In this document: piece by piece, positions 1 to 11,982 of the stretch
How positions within the stretch are numbered: the first letter of the stretch is position 1
Layout: the number at the start of each line of letters is the position of its first letter
Translations under genes and position numbers: made by a program
Assembly: GCA_028875335.1 (NCBI GenBank)
Contig: JAPPEF010000227.1
Location: 1 to 11,982 of the forward strand
Direction: 5' to 3'
Source: Gemmatimonadota bacterium
GTDB lineage: Bacteria; Latescibacterota; UBA2968; UBA8231
DNA: 11,982 nucleotides
The notes under the pieces: generated by a model
What the model saw: only the letters and a program-made list of their open reading frames with translations
What the model was told of the DNA's origin: nothing
The model's database searches: none

Positions 1-35
1 GGAACCCAGTGGCCATACCCCTGAAAGAGAGAATA

Positions 36-173
36 ATGAGCTCGCAAGACTTACAGACTCAAAGCTTGGCGGAATTCGATCTTACAGTTGCCAGTACGCT
101 CCATTATCTGATTGCAGTCAGCGTTGCCTGCGCGGGACTCTGGGTCATCATCATCGCGACCCTCGGCATCTGA
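36..173 (+). CDS. Small single-span membrane peptide upstream of znuC
   Basis: This reading frame encodes 45 residues. Residues 1-20 are polar and the C-terminal half (about 21-45, beginning TLHYLIAVSV) is one hydrophobic helix, so the product would sit in the inner membrane with almost nothing beyond the helix. A purine-rich GAGAG lies about five bases before the ATG at 36. The stop is 15 bases before the ATPase start, which suggests membership of the same zinc-uptake transcript. I do not recognise a family. The frame is open back to the window edge, so this could instead be the C-terminal end of a longer protein that begins outside the window. Another frame ends in TGA at 22-24 and could be the end of an upstream gene, which would favour the ATG at 36. 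Confidence 0.55.
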   Translation: MSSQDLQTQSLAEFDLTVASTLHYLIAVSVACAGLWVIIIATLGI

Positions 174-188
174 GTCCGACAGAGGCCG

Positions 189-950
189 ATGGCGAATCCA
201 ATGCTCCTTTCGGCAACTGGACTCTCGCTCGGCTATGGGACCGAGACCGTCGCTGAAGACGTCGCGTTCAACCTTGCGCTCGGCGATGTGCTTGCTGTTG
301 TCGGTCACAACGGATCGGGAAAATCGACCCTGATCAAAACACTGTTGGGCACCTTGCCGCCGCTTGCCGGCACGCTCAACTGGCCCATCGGGCGGCCACC
401 GACAATTGCCTATCTAGGCCAGAGGACCGAGTTCGACAGCCGCTTTCCCATCCGGGTCCGCGACCTGGCGGCAATGGGTGCTTGGCCCAACTTGGGGTTT
501 CTCGGCCGCATCGATAGTGAGTGCCGGGCTCGGATCGGGTGCGCGCTCGAGCGCACAGGCACCGCCGAGATCGCCGATATGCCCTTGCACAAACTATCCG
601 CGGGTCAGCTGCAACGGGCGCTATTTGCCCGGACCATGGTTCAGGATGCGCCGCTGATCCTATTGGATGAGCCGTTTACGGCCGTCGACCAGACAACGGA
701 AGCGGCTCTGCTGACGCTGATCGATCACTGGGCCGCGGAAGGACGCACCATAATCCTCGTTCTGCACGACCTTTCCGCCGTTCTACAACATTGCAGCTCA
801 GCGCTTCTCCTAGGAGATGGCCGCGCGCTTTTCGGTGCCCCGAAAGAAACGCTTACGCCCGACAATCTGGTCGTTCACCGGTACCTGTCGCAAAGTCAGG
901 CCGCCTGGATCGAAGACATGTACTCGCAATCGAAAGCAGACGATGTTTGA
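189..950 (+). CDS. znuC: Zinc-type metal ABC transporter, ATP-binding protein (ZnuC family)
   Basis: The 253-residue product is the cytoplasmic ATPase that would drive metal import through the permease encoded next to it. All ABC landmarks are visible in order: Walker A GHNGSGKST at residues 39-47, Q-loop glutamine at 78, signature LSAGQ at 136-140, Walker B LILLDEP at 156-162 and the switch histidine at 193. The length is normal for ZnuC/MntB-type ATPases. The ATG at 189 follows AGAGG by about four bases; an ATG at 201 is an alternative start. The gene overlaps the permease gene by 8 bases, which implies translational coupling. The assignment to metal transport comes mainly from its neighbours, a cluster A-I binding protein and a Fur-family regulator. 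Zinc is preferred over manganese because of the ligand set in the binding protein. Confidence 0.93.
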   Translation: MANPMLLSATGLSLGYGTETVAEDVAFNLALGDVLAVVGHNGSGKSTLIKTLLGTLPPLAGTLNWPIGRPPTIAYLGQRTEFDSRFPIRVRDLAAMGAWPNLGFLGRIDSECRARIGCALERTGTAEIADMPLHKLSAGQLQRALFARTMVQDAPLILLDEPFTAVDQTTEAALLTLIDHWAAEGRTIILVLHDLSAVLQHCSSALLLGDGRALFGAPKETLTPDNLVVHRYLSQSQAAWIEDMYSQSKADDV

Positions 951-1821
951 GTGGCTCGACTACGCGTTCATGGTCCGGGCACTGACCGCGACGACGGTGC
1001 TGAGTTTCTCCGTCGCCCCGGTCGGAGCATTCCTAGTGCTCAGGCGCCTGTCGCTCGCCGGCGAGGCGATGGCTCACGCTATTGTGCCGGGAATCGTCAT
1101 CGCTTTCGTGATTGCCGGTCTGTCGGTGGGATCCATGATCGTTGGCGGGTTGACCGCCGGTATCACCGTCGCCGCGCTGACCAGCCTGCTCGCCCGTATG
1201 ACAATCATCCGCGAGGATGCGAGTCTGGCGTCGCTCTACCTGACCGCCCTCGCCCTCGGCATCTTCATCCTGTCCGCCGCCGGCTCGGCGGTGCCGCTGA
1301 AGAGTTTCCTGTTCGGTTCGATCCTCGGCATCAACGACGAAAGCCTCCTGCTGATCGGGATGACGGCTACAATCACATTGGTGAGCTTCGCGCTGATCAT
1401 CAGGCCGCTGATCATCAGTACAATCGATCCGGTCTTCCATGAGAGCCAGTCCAAGCACCCAGGCCTCGTGGCCCACTGGTTCATGTTTCTGGTCGTGCTC
1501 AATCTGTTGGGCGCCTTCAAGGCGCTCGGCACGCTGATGGCGGTCGGGCTGATGATCCTGCCGGCGACGGCGGCGCGTTATTGGGTCTCGACAATCACCG
1601 GCTATTTGATCGTGACCTTCATATTCGCGCTGCTGAGCGGCTGGATCGGGCTGATCGTTTCGTTCTATTTGTCGGACGTGCCTTCAGGTCCCGCAATCGT
1701 GCTGGTTGCGGCGGTCTTTTTCTTTTTAAGCCTGATCTTCGCACCGCAAGGATTTCAGGTCGGCGCACGCCTCAACCCGTACCGCCGCGAACCTCTGACC
1801 ATCAACAGAAACTCAATGTAG
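943..1821 (+). CDS. znuB: Zinc-type metal ABC transporter, permease (ZnuB family)
   Basis: The 292-residue product is a polytopic inner-membrane protein of the ABC-3 metal permease family, which forms the import channel as a dimer. The family-typical cytoplasmic stretch LRRLSLAGEAMAHAIVPG is at residues 33-50, and the late membrane segment around MAVGLMILPATAARYW (199-214) is also characteristic. Several further hydrophobic spans are obvious (about 12-32, 51-82, 97-113, 133-160, 179-195, 220-242, 250-267). I start it at the ATG at 943, inside the end of znuC, rather than at an upstream ATG at 817. The upstream start would add 42 residues that are only an alternative-frame reading of znuC, whereas MFEWLDYAFM is a normal family N-terminus. 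The TAG stop at 1819-1821 shares bases with the ribosome binding site of the next gene. Confidence 0.92.
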   Translation: MFEWLDYAFMVRALTATTVLSFSVAPVGAFLVLRRLSLAGEAMAHAIVPGIVIAFVIAGLSVGSMIVGGLTAGITVAALTSLLARMTIIREDASLASLYLTALALGIFILSAAGSAVPLKSFLFGSILGINDESLLLIGMTATITLVSFALIIRPLIISTIDPVFHESQSKHPGLVAHWFMFLVVLNLLGAFKALGTLMAVGLMILPATAARYWVSTITGYLIVTFIFALLSGWIGLIVSFYLSDVPSGPAIVLVAAVFFFLSLIFAPQGFQVGARLNPYRREPLTINRNSM

Positions 1822-1833
1822 GAGCAAAAAACC

Positions 1834-2715
1834 ATGAAACGACTCTTCAGCGCACTGCTGGTAGCGGGCCTGGCGTTGACCTCAATCCCGGCGGCCGCCG
1901 AGGACAGAATCAAGGTTGTCGCCAGCTTCTCCATCCTCGGCGATATGGTGCGCCAGGTCACCGGCGATTTAGCCGCGGTGACAACCATTGTCGGCCCGGA
2001 CGCGGACGCGCACGTTTACATCCCCAACGCGGCCGACGCCAAAGCAGTGACCAACGCCGAGGCGATCTTTGTCAACGGTCTGGGCTTCGAGACCTGGTCG
2101 CAAACCCTGATCGAGACATCCGCTACCCAGGCCAAAGTGTTCGTCGCGACGGATGGCATAACGCCTTTGAAGGTTGACGGCGCAATCGACCCGCACGCCT
2201 GGAACTCGCTCACAAACGGCATGAAGTATGTCGCCAATATTGCGGACGGCATGGCGGAAACCGATCCGCAAAACGCGGCAGCCTACAAGGCCAATGCCCG
2301 CGCCTACACCGCGAGACTAAAGGCATTACACGACCGCGCGCTCGGCCAACTCAAAAGACTGCCCGCCGGCCAGCGTACGGTCGTGACCGCCCACGACGCC
2401 TTTGGGTATCTGGAGGCAGCCTATGGGCTCACATTTCTGGCCCCGGTCGGGATCGACACCGATGCCGAGCCGTCGGCACGGGACCTCGCCAAGCTGATCG
2501 ATCACCTGAAGGCCGTCGGCGCCGGCGCACTGTTCGTTGAGAACATCACCAGCCCATCCCTGATTCAGCAGATCGCGCACGAAACCGGAATTCAGATCGG
2601 TGGCCGGCTGTTCTCCGACGCACTCTCGGAACGCGGCGGCCCGGCGACCAGCTACGAGAAGATGTTTGAGCACAATTTGGCAACGCTGATTCAAGCGCTC
2701 AGCCAAAAAGCGTAA
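1834..2715 (+). CDS. znuA: Periplasmic zinc-type metal-binding protein (ZnuA/AztC, cluster A-I)
   Basis: The 293-residue product is the secreted solute-binding component that hands metal to the permease. Residues 1-22 form a Sec signal peptide (basic start, LLVAGLALTS core, cleavage likely after AAA). The likely metal ligands are H60 (DAHVYIP), H121 (DPHAW), H187 (TAHDAFGY) and D262 (LFSDALS), a three-histidine, one-aspartate set as known for zinc-binding members such as AztC; manganese-type members usually have Glu in the third place. The His-rich loop found in many ZnuA proteins between the first two ligands is absent. Start choice is clear: AGGAG at 1820-1824, overlapping the znuB stop, lies nine bases before the ATG. 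The gene is co-directional with znuCB and the Fur-family gene 52 bases downstream. Confidence 0.93.
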   Translation: MKRLFSALLVAGLALTSIPAAAEDRIKVVASFSILGDMVRQVTGDLAAVTTIVGPDADAHVYIPNAADAKAVTNAEAIFVNGLGFETWSQTLIETSATQAKVFVATDGITPLKVDGAIDPHAWNSLTNGMKYVANIADGMAETDPQNAAAYKANARAYTARLKALHDRALGQLKRLPAGQRTVVTAHDAFGYLEAAYGLTFLAPVGIDTDAEPSARDLAKLIDHLKAVGAGALFVENITSPSLIQQIAHETGIQIGGRLFSDALSERGGPATSYEKMFEHNLATLIQALSQKA

Positions 2716-2767
2716 TTCGCCACAACTAGGGCCGATCCGGCATCCGGCAGACCAAGGAGGCATCTCC

Positions 2768-3148
2768 ATGAGCAACAGACGCACCAGCCAACGCAGCGCC
2801 ATCGTGCGGGTTATTCGCGACGCCCCCGGCCCACTTCGCCCCTTGGAAATCCTCGACCTGGCGTCCCCCATAGTGCCGACGCTGGGCATTGCAACAGTCT
2901 ATCGGCAGCTCAGGCGCCTGCAAGACGCCGGTGAAGTGCGGGCCGTGGATTTGGGCGTCAATGATGTGCGCTACGAGCCGACCGACCGGGGTCATCATCA
3001 CCATTTTCTCTGTCGCGAGTGCGACGAAGCCTTCGACATCCACGGGTGTGCCGAGGGTATCGAGCAGCTAGCGCCGCCGGGCTTCGAGCTCGAAGGGCAC
3101 GAGATCACGCTGTACGGACAATGCAGCGATTGCAGCGCGGACAAGTGA
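2768..3148 (+). CDS. zur: Fur-family metal-dependent repressor, probably Zur
   Basis: The 126-residue product is a cytoplasmic dimeric repressor that binds operator DNA when loaded with metal. The recognition-helix signature GIATVYRQLRRL is at residues 40-51. The metal-binding half has HHHHF at 76-80, a CxxC pair at C82/C85, H92, H111 and a second CxxC pair at C119/C122. The two CxxC pairs make the structural zinc site typical of Zur and many Fur proteins. A four-histidine run in place of the usual HHDH of iron-type Fur, together with the znuCBA context, favours Zur, but the metal cannot be settled from sequence. AAGGAGG at about 2754-2760 is a strong ribosome binding site for the ATG at 2768. 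The spacer between znuA and this gene has no obvious operator, so it is probably transcribed with znuCBA. Confidence 0.9.
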   Translation: MSNRRTSQRSAIVRVIRDAPGPLRPLEILDLASPIVPTLGIATVYRQLRRLQDAGEVRAVDLGVNDVRYEPTDRGHHHHFLCRECDEAFDIHGCAEGIEQLAPPGFELEGHEITLYGQCSDCSADK

Positions 3149-3235
3149 AACAGGCTTGAACAGGATGATTTGAACGAATTACCCGACGAGCGGGAGATCG
3201 AGCTGGATCAAGTAGGGGTATCGAATATTCGGTAT

Positions 3236-3264
3236 TTGACTTGCCCAAAAAATGATAATGAATT
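3236..3264 (+). promoter_or_regulatory. Putative promoter for the flavoprotein operon
   Basis: TTGACT at 3236-3241 matches a sigma-70 -35 box well, and TGAATT at 3259-3264, 17 bases later, is a poor -10 match (three of six). The -10 region lies inside the Fur-type operator, as expected for metal repression by blocking RNA polymerase. A small perfect palindrome, CGAATATTCG at 3222-3231, sits just upstream of the -35. The spacer between zur and the flavoprotein has no recognisable intrinsic terminator, so read-through from the znu operon is also possible. Confidence 0.4.
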
Positions 3265-3273
3265 ATCATTATC
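3251..3273 (+). promoter_or_regulatory. Fur-type operator (Fur/Zur box)
   Basis: AATGATAATGAATTATCATT at 3251-3270 is an inverted repeat with perfect 9-base arms and a 2-base centre. A second, overlapping repeat (GATAATGA / TCATTATC, 8-base arms, 4-base centre) spans 3254-3273. Read on the minus strand, 3273 to 3254 is GATAATGATAATTCATTATC. That is the classical 19-bp Fur consensus GATAATGATAATCATTATC with one extra T, or in hexamer notation two forward GATAAT units, a 2-base gap and one reverse unit. It sits 200 bases before flavoprotein 1, in an AT-rich island of an otherwise GC-rich spacer. The binding protein could be Fur or the Zur-like protein encoded just upstream. Confidence 0.75.
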
Positions 3274-3310
3274 GGTTCAAAAGTTGCCGCCCTCGCTTGA
3301 TTCGCGGTCG

Positions 3311-3337
3311 GTTTGCGGTAGCGTCTCGCTACCAAAC
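3311..3337 (+). other. Hairpin in the flavoprotein 5' leader
   Basis: GGTAGCG at 3317-3323 and CGCTACC at 3327-3333 form a perfect 7-bp stem with a TCT loop. It can be extended by GTTT (3311-3314) pairing with AAAC (3334-3337) across a 2-base bulge. There is no T tract after it, so it is not a normal intrinsic terminator. It falls between the putative promoter and the leader peptide, where it could affect mRNA stability or translation; the role is inference. Confidence 0.45.
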
Positions 3338-3377
3338 AAACCGGAGTTTGCTGCTCCACACCTGGACGAAAACCCCG

Positions 3378-3476
3378 ATGACACTCGAAGAAATACCCCC
3401 TCGCGACGATCCCCGCTGGGCAGGGCTTCCGAACCCCTTCCCCGAGCTTGAAATGGTCGAAGGAACGGGCGAATGA
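3378..3476 (+). CDS. Possible 32-residue leader peptide overlapping flavoprotein 1
   Basis: An ATG at 3378 opens a 32-residue frame (starts MTLEEIPPRD, ends EMVEGTGE) that is acidic, proline-rich and has no membrane segment, cysteine or histidine. Its stop overlaps the flavoprotein start as ATGA at 3473-3476, the same arrangement used by later genes in this operon, and the flavoprotein ribosome binding site (AAGGAA at 3460-3465) lies inside it. The frame is open further upstream to an ATG at 3252, but that start lies inside the operator and ahead of the hairpin, so it is unlikely. No convincing ribosome binding site precedes 3378. I recognise no family. It may be a real small protein, a coupling leader, or chance. 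Confidence 0.4.
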   Translation: MTLEEIPPRDDPRWAGLPNPFPELEMVEGTGE

Positions 3477-4600
3477 GCGCCTCGACTACAGATCACGTGT
3501 ACGACGCGGTCGTCATCGGTGGCGGCGCGGCCGGTGTGGGCGTCGCGGTCGCCCTTGGGCATGCGGGCATCGAGAGCTTCCTCGTGCTCGAGCGTCAAAC
3601 CGTTGGCGCGTCCTTCGCCTCGTGGCCGGCCGAGACGCGCTTCATCACGCCCTCGTGTACGACCAACTCCATCGGCATGCTCGACCTGAACTCCGTCGTG
3701 ATTGGCACCTCGCCCGCATACACGATAGGGGTCGAGCATCCGACGGGACGGGAGTACTCGGCCTTCCTGAAGGCGACGGTGACGCACTTCGAACTGCCGG
3801 TCCGTGAACACACCGACGTGACGAGCATCGCCCGACAGGGAGACGAGTTCGCGATCGAAACGGGGGATGGGACCGTGCGGGCCCGCCACGTCATCTGGGC
3901 GGCAGGCGACTTCCAGTACCCGCGATTGGACGGATTTGCAGGCAGCTCCCTGTGCCGACACACCGCCACGATCCCCAGCTACGCCGAGCTGGACGGCGAC
4001 GACTTCATCGTCGTCGGCGGCTACGAGAGCGGCGTTGACGTCGCCTGCCACCTCGCCGAACGGGGCAAGCACGTGCGGCTCTTCGACAGGGGCAATCCCT
4101 GGGAATCGAAGAGTTCGGACCCCAGCGTGGCGCTGTCGACGTATTCGCTCGAACGTCTGCGTCGATCCGACTTCACTGAACATGTGGAACTGATCCCGGA
4201 CTCACCCGTCGAGTCGGTCGCCCTGTCGGACTCCACGTACGAGGTCGTCACGCAGGACGGGCGTCGGTTCTACACGCCTGCGCCGCCGCTGCTCGCTGGC
4301 GGATTCGAGGGAAGCCATACGCTCGTCTCAGACCTGTTTGAACAGCGGGAGGACGGCTTTCCGCTGCTGAACGAGCACGATGAATCGACGCTCGTCCCGG
4401 GGATCTTCCTCTGCGGGGCGGCCGTTCGGCACGACAACCTCATCTTCTGCTTCATCTACAAGTACCGACAGCGCTTCGCCGTCGTCGCCAAGGCGATCGC
4501 AACATCGCTGGGACTGCCGGCGGAGGGTCTAGAGATGTACCGTATGTGGGGCATGTACCTGGACGACCTGTCCTGCTGCGGCCAAGAATGCGAATGCTGA
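3473..4600 (+). CDS. FAD/NAD(P)-dependent oxidoreductase with Cys-rich C-terminal tail
   Basis: The 375-residue product belongs to the two-dinucleotide-fold flavoproteins (thioredoxin-reductase/YpdA/flavin-monooxygenase-like). The N-terminal FAD site is VVIGGGAAG (GxGxxG at 16-21) with acidic E40 ending the second strand. The second, NAD(P)-type site is VVGGYESG around 181-187, where a Tyr occupies the middle Gly position. A FLCGAAVRHDNLIFCFIYKYRQ stretch near 312-333 probably closes over the flavin. There is no CxxC redox pair in the position used by thioredoxin reductases. The last eight residues hold four cysteines (C368, C369, C373, C375; CCGQECEC), a possible metal or thiol site. AAGGAA at 3460-3465 supports the ATG at 3473. 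A Fur-type operator upstream suggests expression under metal starvation. Substrate unknown; there is no visible signal peptide, so it is probably cytoplasmic. Confidence 0.85.
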   Translation: MSASTTDHVYDAVVIGGGAAGVGVAVALGHAGIESFLVLERQTVGASFASWPAETRFITPSCTTNSIGMLDLNSVVIGTSPAYTIGVEHPTGREYSAFLKATVTHFELPVREHTDVTSIARQGDEFAIETGDGTVRARHVIWAAGDFQYPRLDGFAGSSLCRHTATIPSYAELDGDDFIVVGGYESGVDVACHLAERGKHVRLFDRGNPWESKSSDPSVALSTYSLERLRRSDFTEHVELIPDSPVESVALSDSTYEVVTQDGRRFYTPAPPLLAGGFEGSHTLVSDLFEQREDGFPLLNEHDESTLVPGIFLCGAAVRHDNLIFCFIYKYRQRFAVVAKAIATSLGLPAEGLEMYRMWGMYLDDLSCCGQECEC

Positions 4601-4821
4601 CCGGCCGTGGCAATGGTACCAACTCCATGACGCCGCGGCGAAGCCGGGTCGAACGGGCACTTCGCCCCGAGTGGCTCGGCCAGACGGCGGCCAGCGTGTG
4701 CTGGATCGGCAGCATGTTCGTCTACGGGATCAGCTCCGGAGGGGACTGGTTGCAGCTGTGCGCCGCGTCGGCCTGGTTGCTGGCCAATATCGCAACGGTG
4801 GCGACTGCCAAGGCTGATTGA
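4594..4821 (+). CDS. Small two-span membrane protein
   Basis: The 75-residue product has a basic N-terminal stretch (TPRRSRVERALRPEW, about 13-27), then two hydrophobic segments (about 29-46, QTAASVCWIGSMFVYGIS, and about 52-72, WLQLCAASAWLLANIATVATA) joined by a short SSGGD turn. Both ends would lie on the same side of the membrane, the cytoplasm by the positive-inside rule. The ATG at 4594 overlaps the flavoprotein stop at 4598-4600; another ATG at 4588 adds two residues. Base composition matches the flavoprotein, so the two probably form one ancestral unit. I recognise no family. Its 3' end is part of the 40-bp repeat that recurs just before flavoprotein 2. It could be a membrane anchor or partner for one of the flavoproteins. 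Confidence 0.6.
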   Translation: MLTGRGNGTNSMTPRRSRVERALRPEWLGQTAASVCWIGSMFVYGISSGGDWLQLCAASAWLLANIATVATAKAD

Positions 4822-4840
4822 GATGTCGGCGGCACTGGAT
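4801..4840 (+). repeat. Junction repeat, upstream copy
   Basis: This 40-bp stretch is identical at 30 of 40 positions to 10831-10870, with an exact ten-base match GGCACTGGAT at its 3' end. It covers the last codons and TGA stop of the small membrane gene, one G, then ATG and the first six codons of what looks like a broken copy of flavoprotein 2. Similarity drops to chance on both sides (1 of 10 just upstream). The two copies bracket the low-GC cassette. Confidence 0.65.
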
Positions 4841-4852
4841 AGGATCGAGTAA
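4823..4852 (+). pseudogene. Truncated start of a flavoprotein-2 homologue
   Basis: ATG at 4823 is followed by codons for SAALDRIE and then TAA at 4850-4852. The intact gene at 10853 or 10859 begins with (M)SMALDWLIIGGG, so the first six codons correspond (MSAALD against VSMALD) before the frame diverges and stops. The position, one base after the TGA of the small membrane gene, is the same as at the downstream junction. I infer a remnant left when the exporter/receptor cassette entered; the stretch is short, so chance cannot be excluded. Confidence 0.4.
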
Positions 4853-4882
4853 TTACCGCCGATCTATTGAACCTGTTTTACC

Positions 4883-5584
4883 ATGCTTGAAACCATAAGC
4901 CTATCGAAAACGTACGGCACCCATAAGGCCTTGAAAGACCTCACGATGACCGTGAAAGCAGGGGAGGTCTTTTGCTTGTTAGGTGCCAATGGAGCGGGTA
5001 AGACGACCACGATCAACCTGTTCCTCAACTTCATCAAGCCCACGCATGGCGAGGCGAGGATCAATGGCATTCCCGTCGCTCAAGAGCCCATAGAAACCAA
5101 GCGATACGTAGCCTATATCCCCGAAAATCTGATCCTCTACCCGGATTTAACGGGGTTGGAGAATCTGGCGTATTTCTCCGCCCTAGCCGGCAAAACCACA
5201 AGCAAAGAAGAAATGATGCTGCTGCTCATCCGCAGCGGCCTGCAAGAAGCTGACATCACCCAACGAGTAGCTAGTTACTCCAAGGGAATGAGACAAAAAG
5301 TCGGTATTGCCATCGCACTGGCCAAAGAGGCCAAAGCTTTGTTATTGGACGAGCCAACTTCCGGCTTGGACCCCAAGGCCAGCAATGAGTTTTCAGACCT
5401 TCTTAAAAGACTCAGCGCCGATGCCATAGCCATCCTCATGGCTACCCATGATCTCTTCCGCGCGCAAGATACGGGAAGTCACATTGGTATCATGAAAGAA
5501 GGACAGCTACTCGAAAATATGGCTGCGTCAGAGATCCCCCTGGCGGAGCTGGAAAAGCTGTACTTACACCACATGAACGATTGA
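4883..5584 (+). CDS. ABC-2 type transporter, ATP-binding protein
   Basis: The 233-residue product is the cytoplasmic ATPase of an export-type (ABC-2, NosF/GldA/CcmA-like) complex whose membrane parts are the next two genes. Walker A GANGAGKTT is at residues 34-42, the switch histidine is H189 (MATHD), and Walker B with the D-loop is ALLLDEPTSGLDP at 152-164. The Q-loop position carries E81 (AYIPEN) and the signature is YSKGM (132-136) rather than LSGGQ; both are common variants in ABC-2 ATPases. The ATG at 4883 starts a normal family N-terminus (MLETISLSKTYG) but has no clear ribosome binding site. It begins the low-GC cassette, 61 bases after the small membrane gene, with no recognisable promoter in the gap, so it probably depends on transcription from upstream. 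Confidence 0.92.
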   Translation: MLETISLSKTYGTHKALKDLTMTVKAGEVFCLLGANGAGKTTTINLFLNFIKPTHGEARINGIPVAQEPIETKRYVAYIPENLILYPDLTGLENLAYFSALAGKTTSKEEMMLLLIRSGLQEADITQRVASYSKGMRQKVGIAIALAKEAKALLLDEPTSGLDPKASNEFSDLLKRLSADAIAILMATHDLFRAQDTGSHIGIMKEGQLLENMAASEIPLAELEKLYLHHMND

Positions 5585-5586
5585 CA

Positions 5587-6999
5587 ATGGTAGGACGCGT
5601 AGCCCAACACGAGCTAATAAGATTTTGCCGCAATGGACGTGCACGCAGCCTGTTCTTTGTTGTCGTGGTGCTACTGGTTGCGGCGTTGGTCTTGAGTCTG
5701 AGAGACTATCAACTGGCCTACGAGCACTATGAGGACAATGTCCGTCAAGCCAGGGCCAATTGGGAGGCACAGACGGCAAAAGACCCACACGATGCGGCGC
5801 ATGATGGTACCTACATCATCAAGCCCATTCATCCACTGGCCCTATTGGATGCTGGTCTCCGGCCGTTCTCGGGTCAAGTCGTGCACTTAAGCGCCCATCA
5901 GCGCAAGCAGGGCAGTCTGCATGAGTCAAAGGATCATTCCGGGATGTTTCGCTTTGGCACCATGACCCCCACTTTCGTTTTGATCTATGTCCTGCCGTTG
6001 CTGCTCATCTTCGTCGGCTATCAGACCGTGACGGAGGAACGGGAGCGCCAGACCATTCGCCTGCTGCTCGTACAGGGAATTTCTTCCCGCCAACTCCTGC
6101 TGGGTAAGTGGATGGCGCTGGCCATCATTATGCTGCCGCTCTGGCTCCTCTTCTTTGCAAGTGCTGGCATCGCTTATGAGGCCGTAACAAAGATGGTCTC
6201 TGTTTCACCCATTGAGTGGGCTGCGATGGCGGGCATTTACTTAGCCTACTTTCTCATCTTTATCAATTTCATTGTTTGGATTTCAGCAACTGCGAAGTCT
6301 TCGGGTATAGCACTGACCGTCCTACTCACTATCTGGATTGTGGTAACTTTAATTGTGCCTAAGATCTCTACCAACCTGGCCGGCACGTTCTATCCCTTTC
6401 CAACACTGCAAACATTCCGCGATGCCATCAACAAGGATCAAGTCAATGGCCTGAATGGGCACAATTTTTGGAATGAAGCGGCCCAGGATTTCCAGCAACA
6501 GGTGCTTGAAGAATACGGTGTAGAGCGCATTGAGGATCTGCCTGTCGCTTACAGTGGGTTATTGCTGGCAGAAGGAGAAAAATACGAATCCGCGGTCTAC
6601 ACCAAGCACTTTGACTTGCTGCAGGATCAATACGAAAAGCAGCGAGAAGTGTACCGCTGGTGCAGTATCCTGTCCCCACTGCTGCCCGTACGGTTTGTTT
6701 CGATGGCTTTGGCACGAACGGACTATGGCTTCCTGTGGCACTTTGAGGATGAAGTCGAAGCTTATCGGGTAGTACTGAACACCGCGTTGAATATGAACAT
6801 CGCCGAGAACGCCAAAGGCGTAGAAAAATACCAAGCGGGCACAGACCTTTGGGAGACTATGCCAGTGTTCGACTATACATGGCAAGCACCGGGCCACATC
6901 ACCCGCGCCCATGCAATTGAGCTGCTGCTGATCGTATTATGGGCGTTTCTCAGCTTCGTGGGTTTTCTGCTATTCACGCGCGACATCAAAGCCCTATGA
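5587..6999 (+). CDS. ABC-2 permease with large periplasmic loops (DUF3526-like), subunit 1
   Basis: The 470-residue product is an inner-membrane protein with six predicted spans at about 21-38, 129-145, 175-195, 212-232, 240-258 and 443-463. The two long stretches between spans 1 and 2 (about 40-128) and between spans 5 and 6 (about 260-440) should face the periplasm, an arrangement typical of DUF3526 permeases. The first loop contains the motif DPHDAAHDGTY (67-77) and eight histidines between residues 48 and 117, a possible metal-binding surface, although part of this motif is, from memory, usual for the family. The cytoplasmic TEERERQTIRLLLVQGISSRQLLLGKW stretch (149-175) is the expected ATPase-coupling region. 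ATG at 5587 follows the ATPase stop by two bases; a TTG at 5581 would add two residues. It likely pairs with subunit 2. What it transports is unknown. Confidence 0.85.
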   Translation: MVGRVAQHELIRFCRNGRARSLFFVVVVLLVAALVLSLRDYQLAYEHYEDNVRQARANWEAQTAKDPHDAAHDGTYIIKPIHPLALLDAGLRPFSGQVVHLSAHQRKQGSLHESKDHSGMFRFGTMTPTFVLIYVLPLLLIFVGYQTVTEERERQTIRLLLVQGISSRQLLLGKWMALAIIMLPLWLLFFASAGIAYEAVTKMVSVSPIEWAAMAGIYLAYFLIFINFIVWISATAKSSGIALTVLLTIWIVVTLIVPKISTNLAGTFYPFPTLQTFRDAINKDQVNGLNGHNFWNEAAQDFQQQVLEEYGVERIEDLPVAYSGLLLAEGEKYESAVYTKHFDLLQDQYEKQREVYRWCSILSPLLPVRFVSMALARTDYGFLWHFEDEVEAYRVVLNTALNMNIAENAKGVEKYQAGTDLWETMPVFDYTWQAPGHITRAHAIELLLIVLWAFLSFVGFLLFTRDIKAL

Positions 7000-8438
7000 A
7001 CCAAAGCTACCAGCGGTTGATCCGATTGGAGTTGCTACAACTCCTTAGAAATAGGTCACATGTTACGCTGATAGCCATTCTCCTGGTGCTCATGACTGCC
7101 GCTACTTGGAATACCTCCCGAACGCTGAAAGCAAAAATGGCGGAAGTTGACAGGCAAACGGATCTCGTCCGGGCCAATGATCAGCAGTTGGGAGCGGAAA
7201 TTGATTCACTCGCACAGGGATTGGCGACCTACGAAACCAGCTACACCTTGCCGACTAGCGGGGTACGACTCACCTACGACAATCACCGCGTGACCACCCT
7301 TCCCTTCTCACCCTTTTCGGTGGTAGCTATTGGGCAAGGCGATCTGCACAGCAACTACAAAAAGATCGTTTTGTATTTTGATACTTCATACGAGATGTAT
7401 TCGGAGGAATTGATCAGTCCCTTGGAGCAACTCTTTGGCCAGCTGGATCTCGCGTTTGTTTGGACCTACCTATTGCCACTCATCATCTTGCTCGTGTCGT
7501 TCAACCTGCTCTCCCTGGAAAGAGAAACCGGCAGGCTGCCCTTGATCGAGTCTCAGCCGCTGGCCGTCTCTCGTTGGTTATTGCTGAGAATCGGCTTGCG
7601 TTTCTTGGTGCTTTTCTCCTCCATCGCCTTAGGCGCGCTGGCATTGCTGGCGATCTTCGCGGCGGGTGCCTTCGGATCTGCAAAAGCGATTGGTCAGTTG
7701 CTCATTATTCTATTCTGCTACTGCGCTTTCTGGTTCTCGCTCAGTTTCCTCGTCAACCTGGCAGGCTACTCCTCGGGAAATGCACTGATAGTGCTGACGA
7801 GCACCTGGGCCCTGCTGGTTTTTCTAGTGCCCTCGGTAGTGAACCAACTCGGCAAGGAAATTCATCCCATTCCCTCTCGGTTGGAAGTGATCAATCATCA
7901 CCAGGCCATATACAACGAGATAGAACACCACCTCGAGGAGGAAATGGCAGGCCTGTTTCAATTGCATCCCGACTGGTATTCAGACGATCCAGTGACGCAA
8001 AGCCTATCAAACTCCACTGGATGGAATATCAATTATCTGGCTAAGCAATATCTAGCGCAGGTCAAACACCAGCCCTTTGCTGCAGAGTACGAAAAGCAAA
8101 TAGATGCGCGCAATGCCTGGTTGCTGAATTTGCGGTTCTTGTCACCTGCATTGATTCTGCAAAATGCGCTGACAGACCTGGCAGGCAGTTCAGTACGACA
8201 CTACCGAAATTTCCTGCAGCAGTCGATTGAATACGCCCAGCAGTATCGCATGTACGTATTCGGTGGACTCTTCTCAAACCATGCATTCACCTCGCAGGAA
8301 ATCAAAAACCTACCAGTGTTCGAGTTTGATAGTAGCCGTGTGCCCAACAGATTCGCTGTCGATTTTCTGGGCCTTGTGACCTATCTGCTGTTGCTACTGG
8401 TAGCCTCACCAATCATCATACGAATCAATAGCAAATGA
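6996..8438 (+). CDS. ABC-2 permease with large periplasmic loops (DUF3526-like), subunit 2
   Basis: The 480-residue product repeats the plan of subunit 1: spans at about 22-38, 152-172, 199-222, 232-254, 261-280 and 453-472, with long periplasmic stretches at about 39-150 and 281-452. The coupling region LLSLERETGRLPLIESQPLAVSRWLLLR (171-198) matches the equivalent part of subunit 1 (ERERQTIRLLL...). Residues 45-75 of the first loop are strongly helical and may form a coiled coil. Overall identity to subunit 1 is low by eye, so they are old paralogues that probably form a heterodimer with the single ATPase. The start at 6996 overlaps the previous stop as ATGA; an ATG at 6939 in the same frame would only read the end of subunit 1 in another frame. 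The stop again overlaps the receptor start as ATGA. Confidence 0.85.
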   Translation: MNQSYQRLIRLELLQLLRNRSHVTLIAILLVLMTAATWNTSRTLKAKMAEVDRQTDLVRANDQQLGAEIDSLAQGLATYETSYTLPTSGVRLTYDNHRVTTLPFSPFSVVAIGQGDLHSNYKKIVLYFDTSYEMYSEELISPLEQLFGQLDLAFVWTYLLPLIILLVSFNLLSLERETGRLPLIESQPLAVSRWLLLRIGLRFLVLFSSIALGALALLAIFAAGAFGSAKAIGQLLIILFCYCAFWFSLSFLVNLAGYSSGNALIVLTSTWALLVFLVPSVVNQLGKEIHPIPSRLEVINHHQAIYNEIEHHLEEEMAGLFQLHPDWYSDDPVTQSLSNSTGWNINYLAKQYLAQVKHQPFAAEYEKQIDARNAWLLNLRFLSPALILQNALTDLAGSSVRHYRNFLQQSIEYAQQYRMYVFGGLFSNHAFTSQEIKNLPVFEFDSSRVPNRFAVDFLGLVTYLLLLLVASPIIIRINSK

Positions 8439-10816
8439 AAGGACAAACCGTGAAAGCGCTGATATGCAAATTGGTGTTAGCATTTGTCGTAATTGCCGGC
8501 ACGGCCCTGGCCCAGTCCAATACCGGGAGCATCGCAGGCAAAGTGACCAACAGCACCGGCCAACCTGAAGAGGACGTGCATATTTCCCTCACGCAGAACC
8601 AGTTTGGGGCCAGTACGAATACGGACGGAGCATTTGCCATAGGAGGGATCCCTGCGGGTGATTATCTGTTGGCCATTACCAAGGTAGGATTCGAAGAGCA
8701 AGTCGTCGCCGTGAACATTGCCTCGGGCGCCACAACAGACGTCAGCATCACCCTCCAGGAGGCCACTTTTCACCTCGATGAGGTAACTGTTTACGGTCAA
8801 AGAAGGAAGACGATCTACGCCACCCGCTTGAATGCACCACTGGATCAAACGCCTCTCTCGGTCAACATCGTCTCGAGGGAATTGCTAAACCAGCAACGGG
8901 CCATCTCTCTCGAAGACGCCTTGAGGAATGTAAGCGCCGTCTCCAAATTCGGCTCTTATGGAGTCAGCGATAATATCAACATTCGGGGATTCGACATTGG
9001 CCTATCGGGCGGATCAGAAAACTACCGGGTGAACGGCGTAATGCTCAGGACGCCTTATTCCGATTATATCGAGGAAGTACAGGTACTGAAGGGGCCCACC
9101 TCAATACTTTACGGCGATGTGGAGCCTGGTGGAGTAATCAACTACGTCACCAAAAAACCCAAAGGGTTTAGTCATGCCTCCCTTGAAATGAAGGTCGGAG
9201 GATACGGTCTGTATCGACCCTCCATTGATGTGGGCGGAACGGTGGGAGACCGCTTGAGCTATCGCCTCAATACGGTATACCACAGCTCGGAAAGTTTCCG
9301 GGATGATGTTACCAGCGAGCAATTCATGATAGCCCCAAGCATGGCCTGGCAGTACGACGAAAGGACGTCACTGACCTTAGAAGGTCTCTTCATGAACAAC
9401 GAGGTCACGATTGACTGGGGCATGCCCGTCGGACTACCACTGGACCGCGCCGGGCAGTTGGACGACACCAACTTTTACGGTTATCCAGACGGCACCTCTG
9501 AGGGCAGAAACAACATGCTCTCCGCCACCTTCCAGCATACGTTCGACAACTTGCAGATACGAAATGTTACTGCCTTTTCTAACCAGCGACGCCTTATTCA
9601 CGATGTATATCCCGTATATAATGCAGCTACAGATAGTGTGGACTATAGCTATGGGGACTACCGTGAGTTGAGCAGGACCAATACATACTCGAACTTCCTG
9701 GATATCACGGGGATGGTGACGACAGGTACCATTCGCCACAGACTGCTGGCTGCCTTGGACGTGTCAAGGGTCTCGCGTCCAGTAGCCTTCAACTTTGTAT
9801 TCCCCATTTCATTCAGTACGTCGCTCGCTAATCCGGAATGGCAGAATATGGCCTTGAGTTCCACCCCTATTCTCGATGACGACGCCCTGCCTTTTACCAG
9901 CCGGATAGGCGTTAATATCCAGGACCTTGTGTCGCTGCGCGATGACCGGCTCAATATCCTCATCGGAGGTCGCTACAGCCGTTTTACGAATGGAACGGAT
10001 TTCAGAGGAGACGCTGAAGAACCCGACGATTACGAGGACACCAATAAATCGCGATTCACACCGCGCGTCGGATTGACATACGAAATTGTTGACGATGTGG
10101 CGCTATATGGAAGCTATGCAGAGTCTTTTAGTTCAGTGGCTCCCCAGCCGGGTAGAGGCTTAGAAGATCCAGAACCCCTCATTGGGAACCAGCTAGAATT
10201 TGGTGTGAAGCAATCGCTTTTTCAGGAGCGCCTGGGGATCACTGTTTCCTACTTCGATTTGAATCGAAAAAATGTGCTGCAATTTGAAATTATCGACCCG
10301 AATGGCAGCATTTCCGACCCCGATAATTTTCGAGCCAATCAGTCCGCTGAGCACTCCAGCCAAGGGGTAGAGGTAGATGTCAATGGGAAGTTGCTGCCCA
10401 ACTGGCAAATCTATGCCGCCTTCTCGTATTTCGGGACCGAAGTAGTGGACGAGGTGACACAAAGCGGGGATTCTGAACCGGTGGATTTCTCAGGCCTGGA
10501 GCTTCCCAATAATCCAAATACCAAACTCAGCCTGTGGACCCATTACACACTCACGCAAGGCATACCTGGTCTCGCATTGGGTGCGGGTATATTTCATCAG
10601 GGCGACATGTTTGGCGATCGCTTGAATACGAAAGAAAGCGTTATTGATGGTTTCACAAGGTTGGATGCTATGGTCAGCTATGAATACAAGCATCTGAAAT
10701 TTCAGGTCAATGCACAGAATCTAAATGGCGTGAAAACTTTCCAGCGGTCCATTTTCGATTCGTTCGTACCTCAGCCCCCGAGTAGGGTGCTTGGATCAAT
10801 TGGCTTCAGATTTTAA
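8435..10816 (+). CDS. TonB-dependent siderophore-type outer-membrane receptor
   Basis: The 793-residue product is a gated outer-membrane beta-barrel that would import a metal chelate using TonB energy. In order: signal peptide 1-26 (cleavage near ALA|Q), a carboxypeptidase-regulatory-like beta domain at about 31-108 (GSIAGKVTNSTGQPEEDVHI), a TonB-box-like DEVTVYG at 115-121, the plug at about 135-241 (INIRGFDIG at 181-189, EVQVLKGPTSILYGDVEPGG at 214-233), and a barrel from about 242 to the terminal Phe. The NIRGF and LKGPxSxLYG motifs and the final RVLGSIGFRF place it with FhuA/FpvA-type siderophore receptors. The N-terminal regulatory-like domain is most common in Bacteroidota receptors. 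The ATG at 8435 overlaps the permease stop; a GTG at 8450 with AAAGGA before it is also credible and gives a shorter signal peptide. The ligand cannot be read from sequence. Confidence 0.93.
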   Translation: MKGQTVKALICKLVLAFVVIAGTALAQSNTGSIAGKVTNSTGQPEEDVHISLTQNQFGASTNTDGAFAIGGIPAGDYLLAITKVGFEEQVVAVNIASGATTDVSITLQEATFHLDEVTVYGQRRKTIYATRLNAPLDQTPLSVNIVSRELLNQQRAISLEDALRNVSAVSKFGSYGVSDNINIRGFDIGLSGGSENYRVNGVMLRTPYSDYIEEVQVLKGPTSILYGDVEPGGVINYVTKKPKGFSHASLEMKVGGYGLYRPSIDVGGTVGDRLSYRLNTVYHSSESFRDDVTSEQFMIAPSMAWQYDERTSLTLEGLFMNNEVTIDWGMPVGLPLDRAGQLDDTNFYGYPDGTSEGRNNMLSATFQHTFDNLQIRNVTAFSNQRRLIHDVYPVYNAATDSVDYSYGDYRELSRTNTYSNFLDITGMVTTGTIRHRLLAALDVSRVSRPVAFNFVFPISFSTSLANPEWQNMALSSTPILDDDALPFTSRIGVNIQDLVSLRDDRLNILIGGRYSRFTNGTDFRGDAEEPDDYEDTNKSRFTPRVGLTYEIVDDVALYGSYAESFSSVAPQPGRGLEDPEPLIGNQLEFGVKQSLFQERLGITVSYFDLNRKNVLQFEIIDPNGSISDPDNFRANQSAEHSSQGVEVDVNGKLLPNWQIYAAFSYFGTEVVDEVTQSGDSEPVDFSGLELPNNPNTKLSLWTHYTLTQGIPGLALGAGIFHQGDMFGDRLNTKESVIDGFTRLDAMVSYEYKHLKFQVNAQNLNGVKTFQRSIFDSFVPQPPSRVLGSIGFRF
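8438..8443 (+). promoter_or_regulatory. Ribosome binding site favouring an internal GTG start of the receptor
   Basis: AAAGGA lies six bases before GTG at 8450, whereas nothing comparable precedes the ATG at 8435. A start at 8450 would give a signal peptide beginning MKALICKLVLAFVV, a very typical n-region. The overlap-coupled ATG at 8435 and this GTG are both plausible; the mature protein is the same. Confidence 0.4.
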
Positions 10817-10830
10817 GAACGAGGCCTAGT

Positions 10831-10870
10831 GCACCTGGCGAAGCCGAATGAGGTGTCGATGGCACTGGAT
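10831..10870 (+). repeat. Junction repeat, downstream copy
   Basis: This copy matches 4801-4840 at 30 of 40 positions over an offset of 6030 bases. In the same frame as the end of the small membrane gene it reads APGEAE then TGA, against ATAKAD then TGA upstream. It then has one G and GTG TCG ATG GCA CTG GAT, against ATG TCG GCG GCA CTG GAT. Thus it looks like the end of a second small-membrane-gene homologue followed by the intact flavoprotein 2 start. Similarity stops abruptly at its left edge, where the low-GC cassette begins. Confidence 0.65.
10850..10855 (+). promoter_or_regulatory. Ribosome binding site deciding the flavoprotein 2 start
   Basis: GAGGTG at 10850-10855, with GAGG five bases before ATG at 10859, supports ATG as the start. 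A GTG at 10853 in the same frame overlaps this motif and would add two residues. It is the base-for-base counterpart of the ATG at 4823. Confidence 0.5.
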
Positions 10871-11982
10871 TGGCTGATCATCGGCGGCGGGATTCACGGC
10901 GTGCACATCGCCGCGCGCCTGCTTGGGGAATCCGGTGTCGCCCCCGAACGACTCCGCATCGTGGACCCGGGCGACCGGCTGCTCGCGCACTGGCGTAGCT
11001 GCGCCGCCACGACGGGGATGACCCACCTGCGCTCACCGGGAGTCCATCACCTGGACCTCGACCCCTTCTCGCTCCTACACTTCGCGGGCAAACGCAAGAA
11101 ACGCAAGCGCCGAAAGACCGGGCTGTTCGCCCCGCCCTACGACCGGCCCGCCTTGGCCCTCTTCAATGCGCACTGCGACCGGGTGGTGGAGACCTTCGGG
11201 CTCGCCAACCTCCACATCCAGGATCGGGCCACGAAGTGCTCGGTCGACCGTGACGGCGTCGGCGTTCAGCTCTCGAGCGGGCGCGAGATCGCAGCGCAGC
11301 ACCTCGTATTGGCCATCGGCGCGAGCGAACAGCCCGAGTGGCCGGATTGGGCACTGCGCAGTCACGCCCGCGTCCACCATGTCTTCGAGCCGGGGTTCGA
11401 CGGGTGGCCGTCGTCAAGCGAGACCGTCGTGGTCATCGGCGGCGGTATCTCGGCGGTCCAGGTGGCGCTCCGCCTCGTGGAGGAAGGGCATCGCGTCCAT
11501 CTCGTCTCGCGCCATGCCCTGCGCCAGCACCAATTCGACAGCGATCCGGGCTGGCTCGGTCCGAAGTGCATGGAGCGCTTCCACCGCGAACGGGATTTTG
11601 ATCGTCGGCGGACCCTGATCGCTGAAGCGCGCCACAAAGGTTCGGTGCCCCCCGACGTCCGGCGCGCGCTGCGCCGGTCCATCGCAGGGGGCCAGCTGCT
11701 CTGGCACGAGGGCGAGGTTGAAGGGTTCGATGCGCGCCGCGATGTCCTCGCGCTGCGGCTCGCTACCCACTCAGGGCTGGAAGCGGAGCGCGTTCTGCTC
11801 GCGACCGGGTTCGCATCGAACCGCCCTGGCGGAGCGATGGTCGATGCGTTGATCGCCTCGGCCTCGTTGCCGTGCGCGCGCTGCGGCTACCCCATCGTGG
11901 ATTCCGCGCTTCGCTGGCATCCGCGCATTCACGTCTCGGGCCCTCTCGCCGAGCTCGAGCTGGGGCCCGCGTCCCGCAACAT
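10859..11982 (+). CDS. FAD/NAD(P)-binding oxidoreductase or monooxygenase, partial at window end
   Basis: 374 residues are visible and the frame runs off the window. The FAD site is LIIGGGIHG (GxGxxG at 9-14), and the second nucleotide site is VVVIGGGISA (194-199). LLATGF at 313-318 is the conserved ATG(Y/F) element of N-hydroxylating and Baeyer-Villiger type flavin monooxygenases. GPLAELELGP near the end is, from memory, typical of a family of stand-alone FAD-NAD(P)-binding proteins; only a short tail should be missing. Two features stand out: a very basic run RKKRKRRK at 79-86 before the APPYDRP motif, and a C339-A-R-C342 pair close to the C-terminus. Codon use is strongly GC-ending, like flavoprotein 1 and unlike the receptor gene 42 bases upstream. 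The catalysed reaction is unknown; redox handling or modification of a metal chelate would fit the neighbours. Confidence 0.85.
   Translation, partial: MALDWLIIGGGIHGVHIAARLLGESGVAPERLRIVDPGDRLLAHWRSCAATTGMTHLRSPGVHHLDLDPFSLLHFAGKRKKRKRRKTGLFAPPYDRPALALFNAHCDRVVETFGLANLHIQDRATKCSVDRDGVGVQLSSGREIAAQHLVLAIGASEQPEWPDWALRSHARVHHVFEPGFDGWPSSSETVVVIGGGISAVQVALRLVEEGHRVHLVSRHALRQHQFDSDPGWLGPKCMERFHRERDFDRRRTLIAEARHKGSVPPDVRRALRRSIAGGQLLWHEGEVEGFDARRDVLALRLATHSGLEAERVLLATGFASNRPGGAMVDALIASASLPCARCGYPIVDSALRWHPRIHVSGPLAELELGPASRN

Follow-up and report, generated by a model that had tools for sequence, protein, structure and literature searches.

The window analysed here, 11,982 nucleotides of contig JAPPEF010000227.1 of a Gemmatimonadota bacterium, probably consists of two modules, namely a host locus for zinc starvation and an inserted ZnuK/ZnuGHI-like unit that now stands behind the zinc-type operator of the host. 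The inserted genes encode an ATP-binding cassette (ABC) ATPase, two ABC-2 permeases and a TonB-dependent receptor, and they separate a flavoprotein (flavoprotein 1) and a small membrane protein from a second flavoprotein (flavoprotein 2). The part newly pointed to is the family of flavoprotein 1. The insert belongs to a known kind of module, found here in a new place, and is not undescribed, because a znuK-znuGHI set of the same composition has been published for Caulobacter. The original prediction read everything from flavoprotein 1 to flavoprotein 2 as a single undescribed metal-chelate system. The parts that it named are all present, on the + strand like all genes of the window and with short gaps or overlaps between them, and a Fur-type operator lies at the head of flavoprotein 1. 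It did not name znuC, znuB, znuA and the Fur-family gene (189-3148), which precede its start coordinate, nor the COG0523 stub or the fall in G+C content described below. The large loops described for the permeases were recovered by hydropathy as 87- and 112-residue gaps between the first two membrane segments, and the receptor and the ABC-2 pair do form one unit. The single undescribed system was not upheld, given an empty site in the closest genome and the published Caulobacter combination (PMC4176598).

Insertion was evaluated against the closest genome, G001, and against locus L015, which has the same layout and belongs to the metagenome-assembled genome Gemmatimonadetes bacterium SB0661_bin_36. 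Window positions 1-4843 (97%) and 10842-11982 (99%) lie side by side on one contig of G001, which lacks the ABC-2 and receptor genes there. At this uninterrupted site, in both G001 and L015, flavoprotein 2 (98% identity in L015) has its start immediately behind the membrane-protein gene, which makes window 4844-10834 an insertion. The two copies of the 39-bp direct repeat at its ends are identical at 30 of 39 positions, with an alignment score of 21 compared to a maximum of 16 in 296 random pairs of window stretches. The G+C content (GC) was 0.505-0.521 in the four inserted genes and 0.603-0.691 in the seven others, with a break also in GC at third codon positions (GC3), and the low-GC stretch spanned 4883-10816.

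The relatives of the inserted genes suggest that the module was probably acquired from Bacteroidota. With the window's own cluster excluded, the 56 best relatives of the receptor were 63-77% identical to it, and the three with a named taxon were all Bacteroidota; below these 56, identity was at most 35% among the 120 of 232 matches listed. The second permease was 53-72% identical to its closest clusters, three of them named and all Bacteroidota/Bacteroidetes, while in 64 surveyed genomes of the phylum of G001 its identity was at most 30% among the matches listed. DUF3526 genes of any kind were present in 26 of these 64 genomes. An unusually dense ABC-2 permease array was observed in one genome of the genus of G001, with 15 of its 16 DUF3526 matches in about 52 kb (G051:C1:5208813-5260673). 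Comparison of the 56 clusters of the receptor with the 60 of the permease gave 37 longest contigs of matching size, which suggests that receptor and permease travel together. Relatives of the first permease occurred in 12 plasmid records, of which 10 were fetched. A neighbouring receptor was found in eight of these ten regions, seven by annotation (in Aureibacter with one gene between) and that of Novosphingobium by BLAST; the Methylocystis and Variovorax regions had no neighbouring receptor. A first-permease relative was also found in 1 of 240 alphaproteobacterial genomes, which was likewise the one positive of two genomes in its family; it lies at a contig edge and is therefore uninformative on context.

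Excerpts of a 2014 report (PMC4176598) describe the Caulobacter crescentus genes znuGHI, for an ABC-2 ATPase and two ABC-2 permeases, as adjoining the receptor gene znuK; all are Zur-repressed, znuK is required at low zinc, and znuK and znuG list one Zur site that is read from opposite strands. This set (CC1517-CC1520) and the insert are alike in pairing a TonB receptor with an ABC ATPase and two ABC-2 permeases, which is the ZnuK/ZnuGHI-type composition, and in a link to zinc regulation that is putative for the insert. Unlike in Caulobacter, the four inserted genes run one way, with the receptor last, inside a host operon and with no operator of their own. The resemblance in composition and regulation is a likeness by description, not orthology; PF12040 was found in 1 of 14 control genomes, that of Caulobacter vibrioides. 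No operator was present in the 64 bp ahead of the module, and the palindromic operator heads the operon 1.6 kb upstream. Since no operator belonging to the module itself is visible, its transcription probably proceeds from the zinc operator of the host.

The receptor narrowly missed the siderophore receptor family TIGR01783 (221.8 bits, cut-off 223.5). A search extending to the window end at 11982 found no periplasmic binding protein or inner-membrane importer beside it, the only ones in the window being ZnuA and ZnuB, of zinc type and more than 5 kb upstream. The earlier judgement that this is not a standard siderophore operon thus agrees with these results. The PF12679 superfamily, which the first permease matches, includes NosY-type permeases, and analogy suggests that the ABC-2 complex could work by passing mechanical energy to a metal carrier in the periplasm.

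Table 1. Features of the window in order of position.
Feature	Position	Strand	Evidence or remark
znuC, zinc ABC importer ATPase	189..950	+	PF00005 78 bits; 99% identity in L015
znuB, zinc ABC importer permease	943..1821	+	PF00950 161 bits
znuA, periplasmic zinc-binding protein	1834..2715	+	PF01297 268 bits
Fur-family regulator, probably Zur	2768..3148	+	PF01475 66 bits; adjoins znuCBA
Candidate Zur box ATGATAATGAATTATCAT	3252..3269	.	single match in window
COG0523 (cobW/zigA-type) C-terminal stub	3378..3476	+	aligns with C-termini of full-length COG0523 open reading frames
Flavoprotein 1, NAD(P)H/FAD-type, four-cysteine C-terminal tail	3473..4600	+	PF13738 (Pyr_redox_3) 312 bits
75-residue membrane protein	4594..4821	+	moderate hydrophobicity in two segments (17-residue means at best 1.58 and 1.30)
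Left copy, degenerate 39-bp direct repeat	4805..4843	+	remnant of flavoprotein 2 start; aligned to empty site and right copy
Inserted module, about 6.0 kb	4844..10834	+	absent from corresponding site in G001/L015
ABC ATPase of ABC-2 system	4883..5584	+	PF00005 101 bits
First ABC-2 permease	5587..6999	+	PF12679 81.7, PF12040 (DUF3526) 100 bits
Second ABC-2 permease	6996..8438	+	PF12040 (DUF3526) 72.9 bits; Bacteroidota relatives
TonB-dependent receptor with N-terminal carboxypeptidase-regulatory domain	8435..10816	+	PF00593 158, PF07715 62 bits
Right copy, 39-bp direct repeat	10835..10873	+	intact working start of flavoprotein 2
Flavoprotein 2, cut off by window end	10853 (or 10859)..11982	+	PF13454 67, PF13738 56.5 bits

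The operator lies about 200 bp ahead of flavoprotein 1 and matches ATGATAAT-NN-ATTATCAT at every position, a pattern for which 0.01 chance matches are expected when up to 3 mismatches are allowed. Its 14-bp core was found twice in L015, ahead of flavoprotein 1 and ahead of dsrE-hisI, a degenerate copy precedes a TonB receptor gene in the same locus, and cobW-flavoprotein 1 of L016 has a related site ahead of it. On account of the genes behind these operator copies and of the adjacent znuCBA, the candidate site points to an operator that answers to zinc rather than iron; the metal control originally predicted is in this respect supported and, from the neighbouring genes, assigned to zinc. The adjoining Fur-family regulator (2768-3148) was below every NCBIfam equivalog cut-off. 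Separately, a stretch of L015 (L015:13317-21125) was observed to form a zinc island with operator copies. It includes a separate COG0523 gene 5.6 kb downstream, preceded by genes for a ZrgA-like protein, an ABC ATPase and an FtsX-like permease; beyond this gene the operator core recurs, followed by DsrE-like and HisI genes and, after them, the TonB receptor. Another palindrome, TTGCA-NN-TGCAA, was found once each between or near fur and cobW genes in 12 of the 32 loci that encode flavoprotein 1 relatives (L019-L026, L028, L029, L031, L040), and elsewhere in L034 and L035; it is a candidate for a second type of Zur operator. At the other end of the zinc importer genes, a 45-residue open reading frame with one hydrophobic stretch (window 36-173) ends just ahead of znuC and may belong to the zinc operon as the gene of a small membrane protein.

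A COG0523 gene has left a trace between the operator and flavoprotein 1. The stub is a 32-residue peptide that matches the C-terminal 15-28 residues of full-length proteins elsewhere (best E 1e-4) and is present in identical form in L015/G001. Its stop overlaps the start of flavoprotein 1, likewise in L016. Because of this match to COG0523 C-termini and the overlap shared with L016, the ancestral operon order was probably cobW-flavoprotein 1-membrane protein-flavoprotein 2.

Neighbourhoods were counted in the 32 fetched loci with flavoprotein 1 relatives, and sequence features in these together with the window (n=33). A four-cysteine tail was present in all 33 sequences when read to their own stops, as CCx3CxC in 22 and as CCx3CxxC in 11, in organisms ranging from Gemmatimonadota to Euryarchaeota; among 120 relatives listed, 65 had the former spacing, 44 the latter and 11 a tyrosine for the first cysteine. 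The window protein has cysteines at 62, 161, 192, 314, 326, 368, 369, 373 and 375, of which C326 is invariant (33/33) and C161 is conserved in the 31 of 31 alignment rows that reach it. Unlike thioredoxin reductase, flavoprotein 1 of the window has no CxxC spacing; the CxxC found in 11 of the 33 sequences is at the C-terminus.

Flavoprotein 1 belongs to a Pyr_redox_3 family resembling 3d1c, a putative flavin-containing monooxygenase of Staphylococcus aureus, as indicated by a full-length match together with the tail cysteines. The match (E 3e-74, 253 bits, about 36% identity) covers residues 12-375 and runs through the cysteine-rich C-terminus to the last residue. An alignment-based model with a predicted local distance difference test score (pLDDT) of 77 gave 3d1c as best fold match, followed by the bacillithiol disulfide reductase YpdA/Bdr (template modelling scores, TM, 0.70/0.80); a structure prediction made without an alignment was dropped at pLDDT 36.8. 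Bdr/YpdA was also the best NCBIfam match (TIGR04018, 80.3 bits), far below the cut-off of 339.9, and differs from flavoprotein 1 in sequence (about 20% identity) and at the C-terminus, where flavoprotein 1 is longer and carries its cysteine tail. The cut-off of TIGR01292 was likewise missed (36 bits compared to 343). Excerpts of the literature on zinc regulons gave no function for the family (PMC2823685, PMC6103462, PMC2770081, PMC10957091, PMC13339975, PMC7174638), and PMC6336718 contained no match to flavoprotein terms. The excerpted sources do describe, in Corynebacterium glutamicum, a Zur-controlled COG0523 GTPase and oxidoreductase, cg0794/cg0795 (PMC2823685), whose genes are divergent, unlike those of flavoprotein 1 loci, and, in an expression table for Mycobacterium smegmatis, a flavin-containing monooxygenase gene, MSMEG_5022; both are likened to flavoprotein 1 by description only.

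The neighbours of flavoprotein 1 recur. The gene of the 75-residue membrane protein, for which neither Pfam nor NCBIfam gave a match at E 0.1, overlaps the stop of flavoprotein 1 with its start (4594), and a relative of it lies beside flavoprotein 1 in 28 of the 32 loci. A FeoB-like gene is nearby instead in L041, L042 and L044, so that one or the other neighbours flavoprotein 1 in 31 loci; the sequence of L020 stops 97 bases downstream of flavoprotein 1. A COG0523 gene was found directly upstream in 18 loci and directly downstream in one (L044), while L027, L043 and L046 have less than 40 bases upstream and are uninformative. Fur-family genes were present in 17 loci, including one weak match (L017), and flavoprotein 2 follows in six (L015, L016, L017, L019, L025, L043). 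A conserved protein of about 200 residues was also observed beside the flavoprotein or its partner, downstream of flavoprotein 1 in L034, L035, L037, L042 and L045 and upstream in L044; the L037 member was without a Pfam match at E 0.01.

Flavoprotein 1 relatives were present in 538 plasmid records, from which five neighbourhoods were fetched. In Haloferax and Halocatena the relative stands alongside genes for a COG0523-type GTP-binding protein, ribosomal protein S14 and a FeoB-like protein, in Haloferax additionally with HisI and a relative of flavoprotein 2 (34%). The Paenibacillus relative has GTPase, S14, FeoB-like and L33 genes as neighbours, and those of two Acaryochloris plasmids have zigA and Fur genes, one of them also a FeoB-like gene. 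The plasmid records further included 499 from Klebsiella and 20 from Escherichia, at 40% identity among the rows listed.

From the gene order, operator, conservation and zinc-related neighbours observed, we infer that Zur would leave the operator when zinc is scarce and that the operon would then be made. Flavoprotein 1 would pass electrons from NAD(P)H via flavin adenine dinucleotide (FAD) to protein or low-molecular thiols, and its flexible cysteine tail would serve as a relay or zinc hand-over site beside the membrane partner and COG0523 chaperones. Zinc or a zinc chelate would be brought into the periplasm by the TonB receptor, and the ATP-driven ABC-2 complex with its large loops would act on that metal or its carrier. 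Flavoprotein 1 is accordingly proposed to be a thiol- or zinc-handling flavoenzyme of zinc starvation with the mobile tail as its working end. A wider formulation, which we regard as doubtful, would place it in a widespread bacterial and archaeal zinc-starvation family in which a swinging C-terminal cysteine arm, with a counterpart in principle in the C-terminal dithiol of mercuric reductase or of large thioredoxin reductases, governs by redox chemistry whether zinc is loaded or released between a membrane partner, two-span or FeoB-like, and COG0523; here COG0523 would have been lost from the operon and a complete Bacteroidota-type zinc-import module captured behind the same operator.

Several observations weigh against the zinc-starvation reading or parts of it. 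The operator could be a target of Fur. In the six archaeal loci from genome contigs, the fetched flanks contained neither COG0523 nor Fur genes, an argument against a zinc link that is universal. No consistent upstream operator was found for the ABC-2 modules of the ten plasmid relatives (11 stretches scanned), and a zinc link of the module is therefore unproven outside this locus and Caulobacter. The TTGCA-type palindrome was present in none of 14 DUF3526 regions (L101-L114). The tail is not fully invariant, as shown by its variable spacing and by the tyrosine in 11 of the 120 listed relatives, and the mobile-arm idea, apart from this tail sequence, draws on a model built from a shallow alignment, with the tail at pLDDT below 50. 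Flavoprotein 1 is also patchy, being present at E 1e-60 in 2 of the 64 genomes of the phylum of G001 (G001 itself and G043), and on this account may itself have moved between lineages. Two candidates were rejected. The only palindrome of the plasmid modules beyond all shuffles, between genes in Aureibacter, resembles a terminator hairpin and not an operator, and co-regulation of distant DUF3526 clusters in flavoprotein 1 genomes was dropped with the palindrome missing from L101-L114.

Other explanations of the locus were weighed against the reading of two modules. It is improbable that both flavoproteins are N-hydroxylating or Baeyer-Villiger-type monooxygenases that make or break a zincophore exported by the ABC-2 pair. 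The usual role of ABC-2 systems is export, 3d1c carries the name of a putative monooxygenase, two flavoprotein 1 relatives (P0260, P0279) are assigned to the SidA/IucD/PvdA family by NCBI, and flavoprotein 2 reaches PF13434 with 27.0 bits, at model positions 141-262 of 339 only. Flavoprotein 1 however remains below the cut-off of that family (18.7 compared to 21.3 bits) and ranks by fold next to disulfide reductases, no synthetase was found among the scanned window genes or the 11 scanned open reading frames of L015, and archaea and Paenibacillus have members of the family too, with S14, HisI or FeoB-like genes as neighbours. An assembly chimera, with G001-like DNA joined to Bacteroidota DNA at both module ends, is a little more improbable still. 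The composition borders are sharp and a single contig, of 11,186 bases, is reported for the near-identical receptor cluster, but such joining accords poorly with two in-operon junctions that show a degenerate repeat and no exact overlap, with borders that both fall between genes without a change of reading direction, and with a second-permease cluster reported on 4 contigs, the longest of 1.38 Mb.

A single integrated system, in which flavoproteins, membrane protein, ABC-2 pair and receptor co-evolved as machinery that takes up, redox-processes and recycles a metal chelator, has been largely refuted and is very unlikely. The shared strand, tight spacing and one operator would fit it, related ABC-2 genes stand as a trio beside fur-cobW-flavoprotein 1-2 in L019, and 16 of the 32 flavoprotein 1 genomes have DUF3526 genes. 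Yet the closest genome has an empty site, the GC and ancestry of the insert differ, and the same arrangement was found in none of the 32 loci, with L019 being the one locus that has the trio in its flank. The co-occurrence expected from the original prediction also failed in the other direction, as 24 DUF3526 regions searched by BLAST contained neither flavoprotein, and none of the six loci with flavoprotein 2 has the cassette between the membrane protein and flavoprotein 2. G043, the only other flavoprotein 1 genome in the genus of G001, has cobW, flavoprotein 1 (71%) and the membrane protein, and its fetched 10.95 kb gave no match to flavoprotein 2 or to the ABC-2/receptor genes. What survives of the proposed system for chelator uptake, redox processing and export is metal control and the receptor/ABC-2 unit, and not their membership of a single undescribed system. 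The slimmest chance was given to an ancestral module lost in G001 by recombination between the 39-bp repeats, which was judged unlikely. Deletion across direct repeats would likewise leave one copy; against this, in all six flavoprotein 2 loci the two genes have no such module between them, the left repeat is, as a duplicated insertion site predicts, a degenerate piece of the flavoprotein 2 start, and the GC of the module is foreign.

Read as two modules, the locus presents a metal-uptake module spanning outer and inner membrane that has probably moved between phyla and come to lie within a zinc-type operon already in place; a near relative retains the empty site. The locus also draws attention to a flavoprotein family that is common, has a conserved cysteine tail and accompanies zinc-starvation genes in bacteria and haloarchaea. 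If this family does handle zinc via thiol redox chemistry, an enzyme step would be added to a field made up mostly of importers, GTPases and spare ribosomal proteins.

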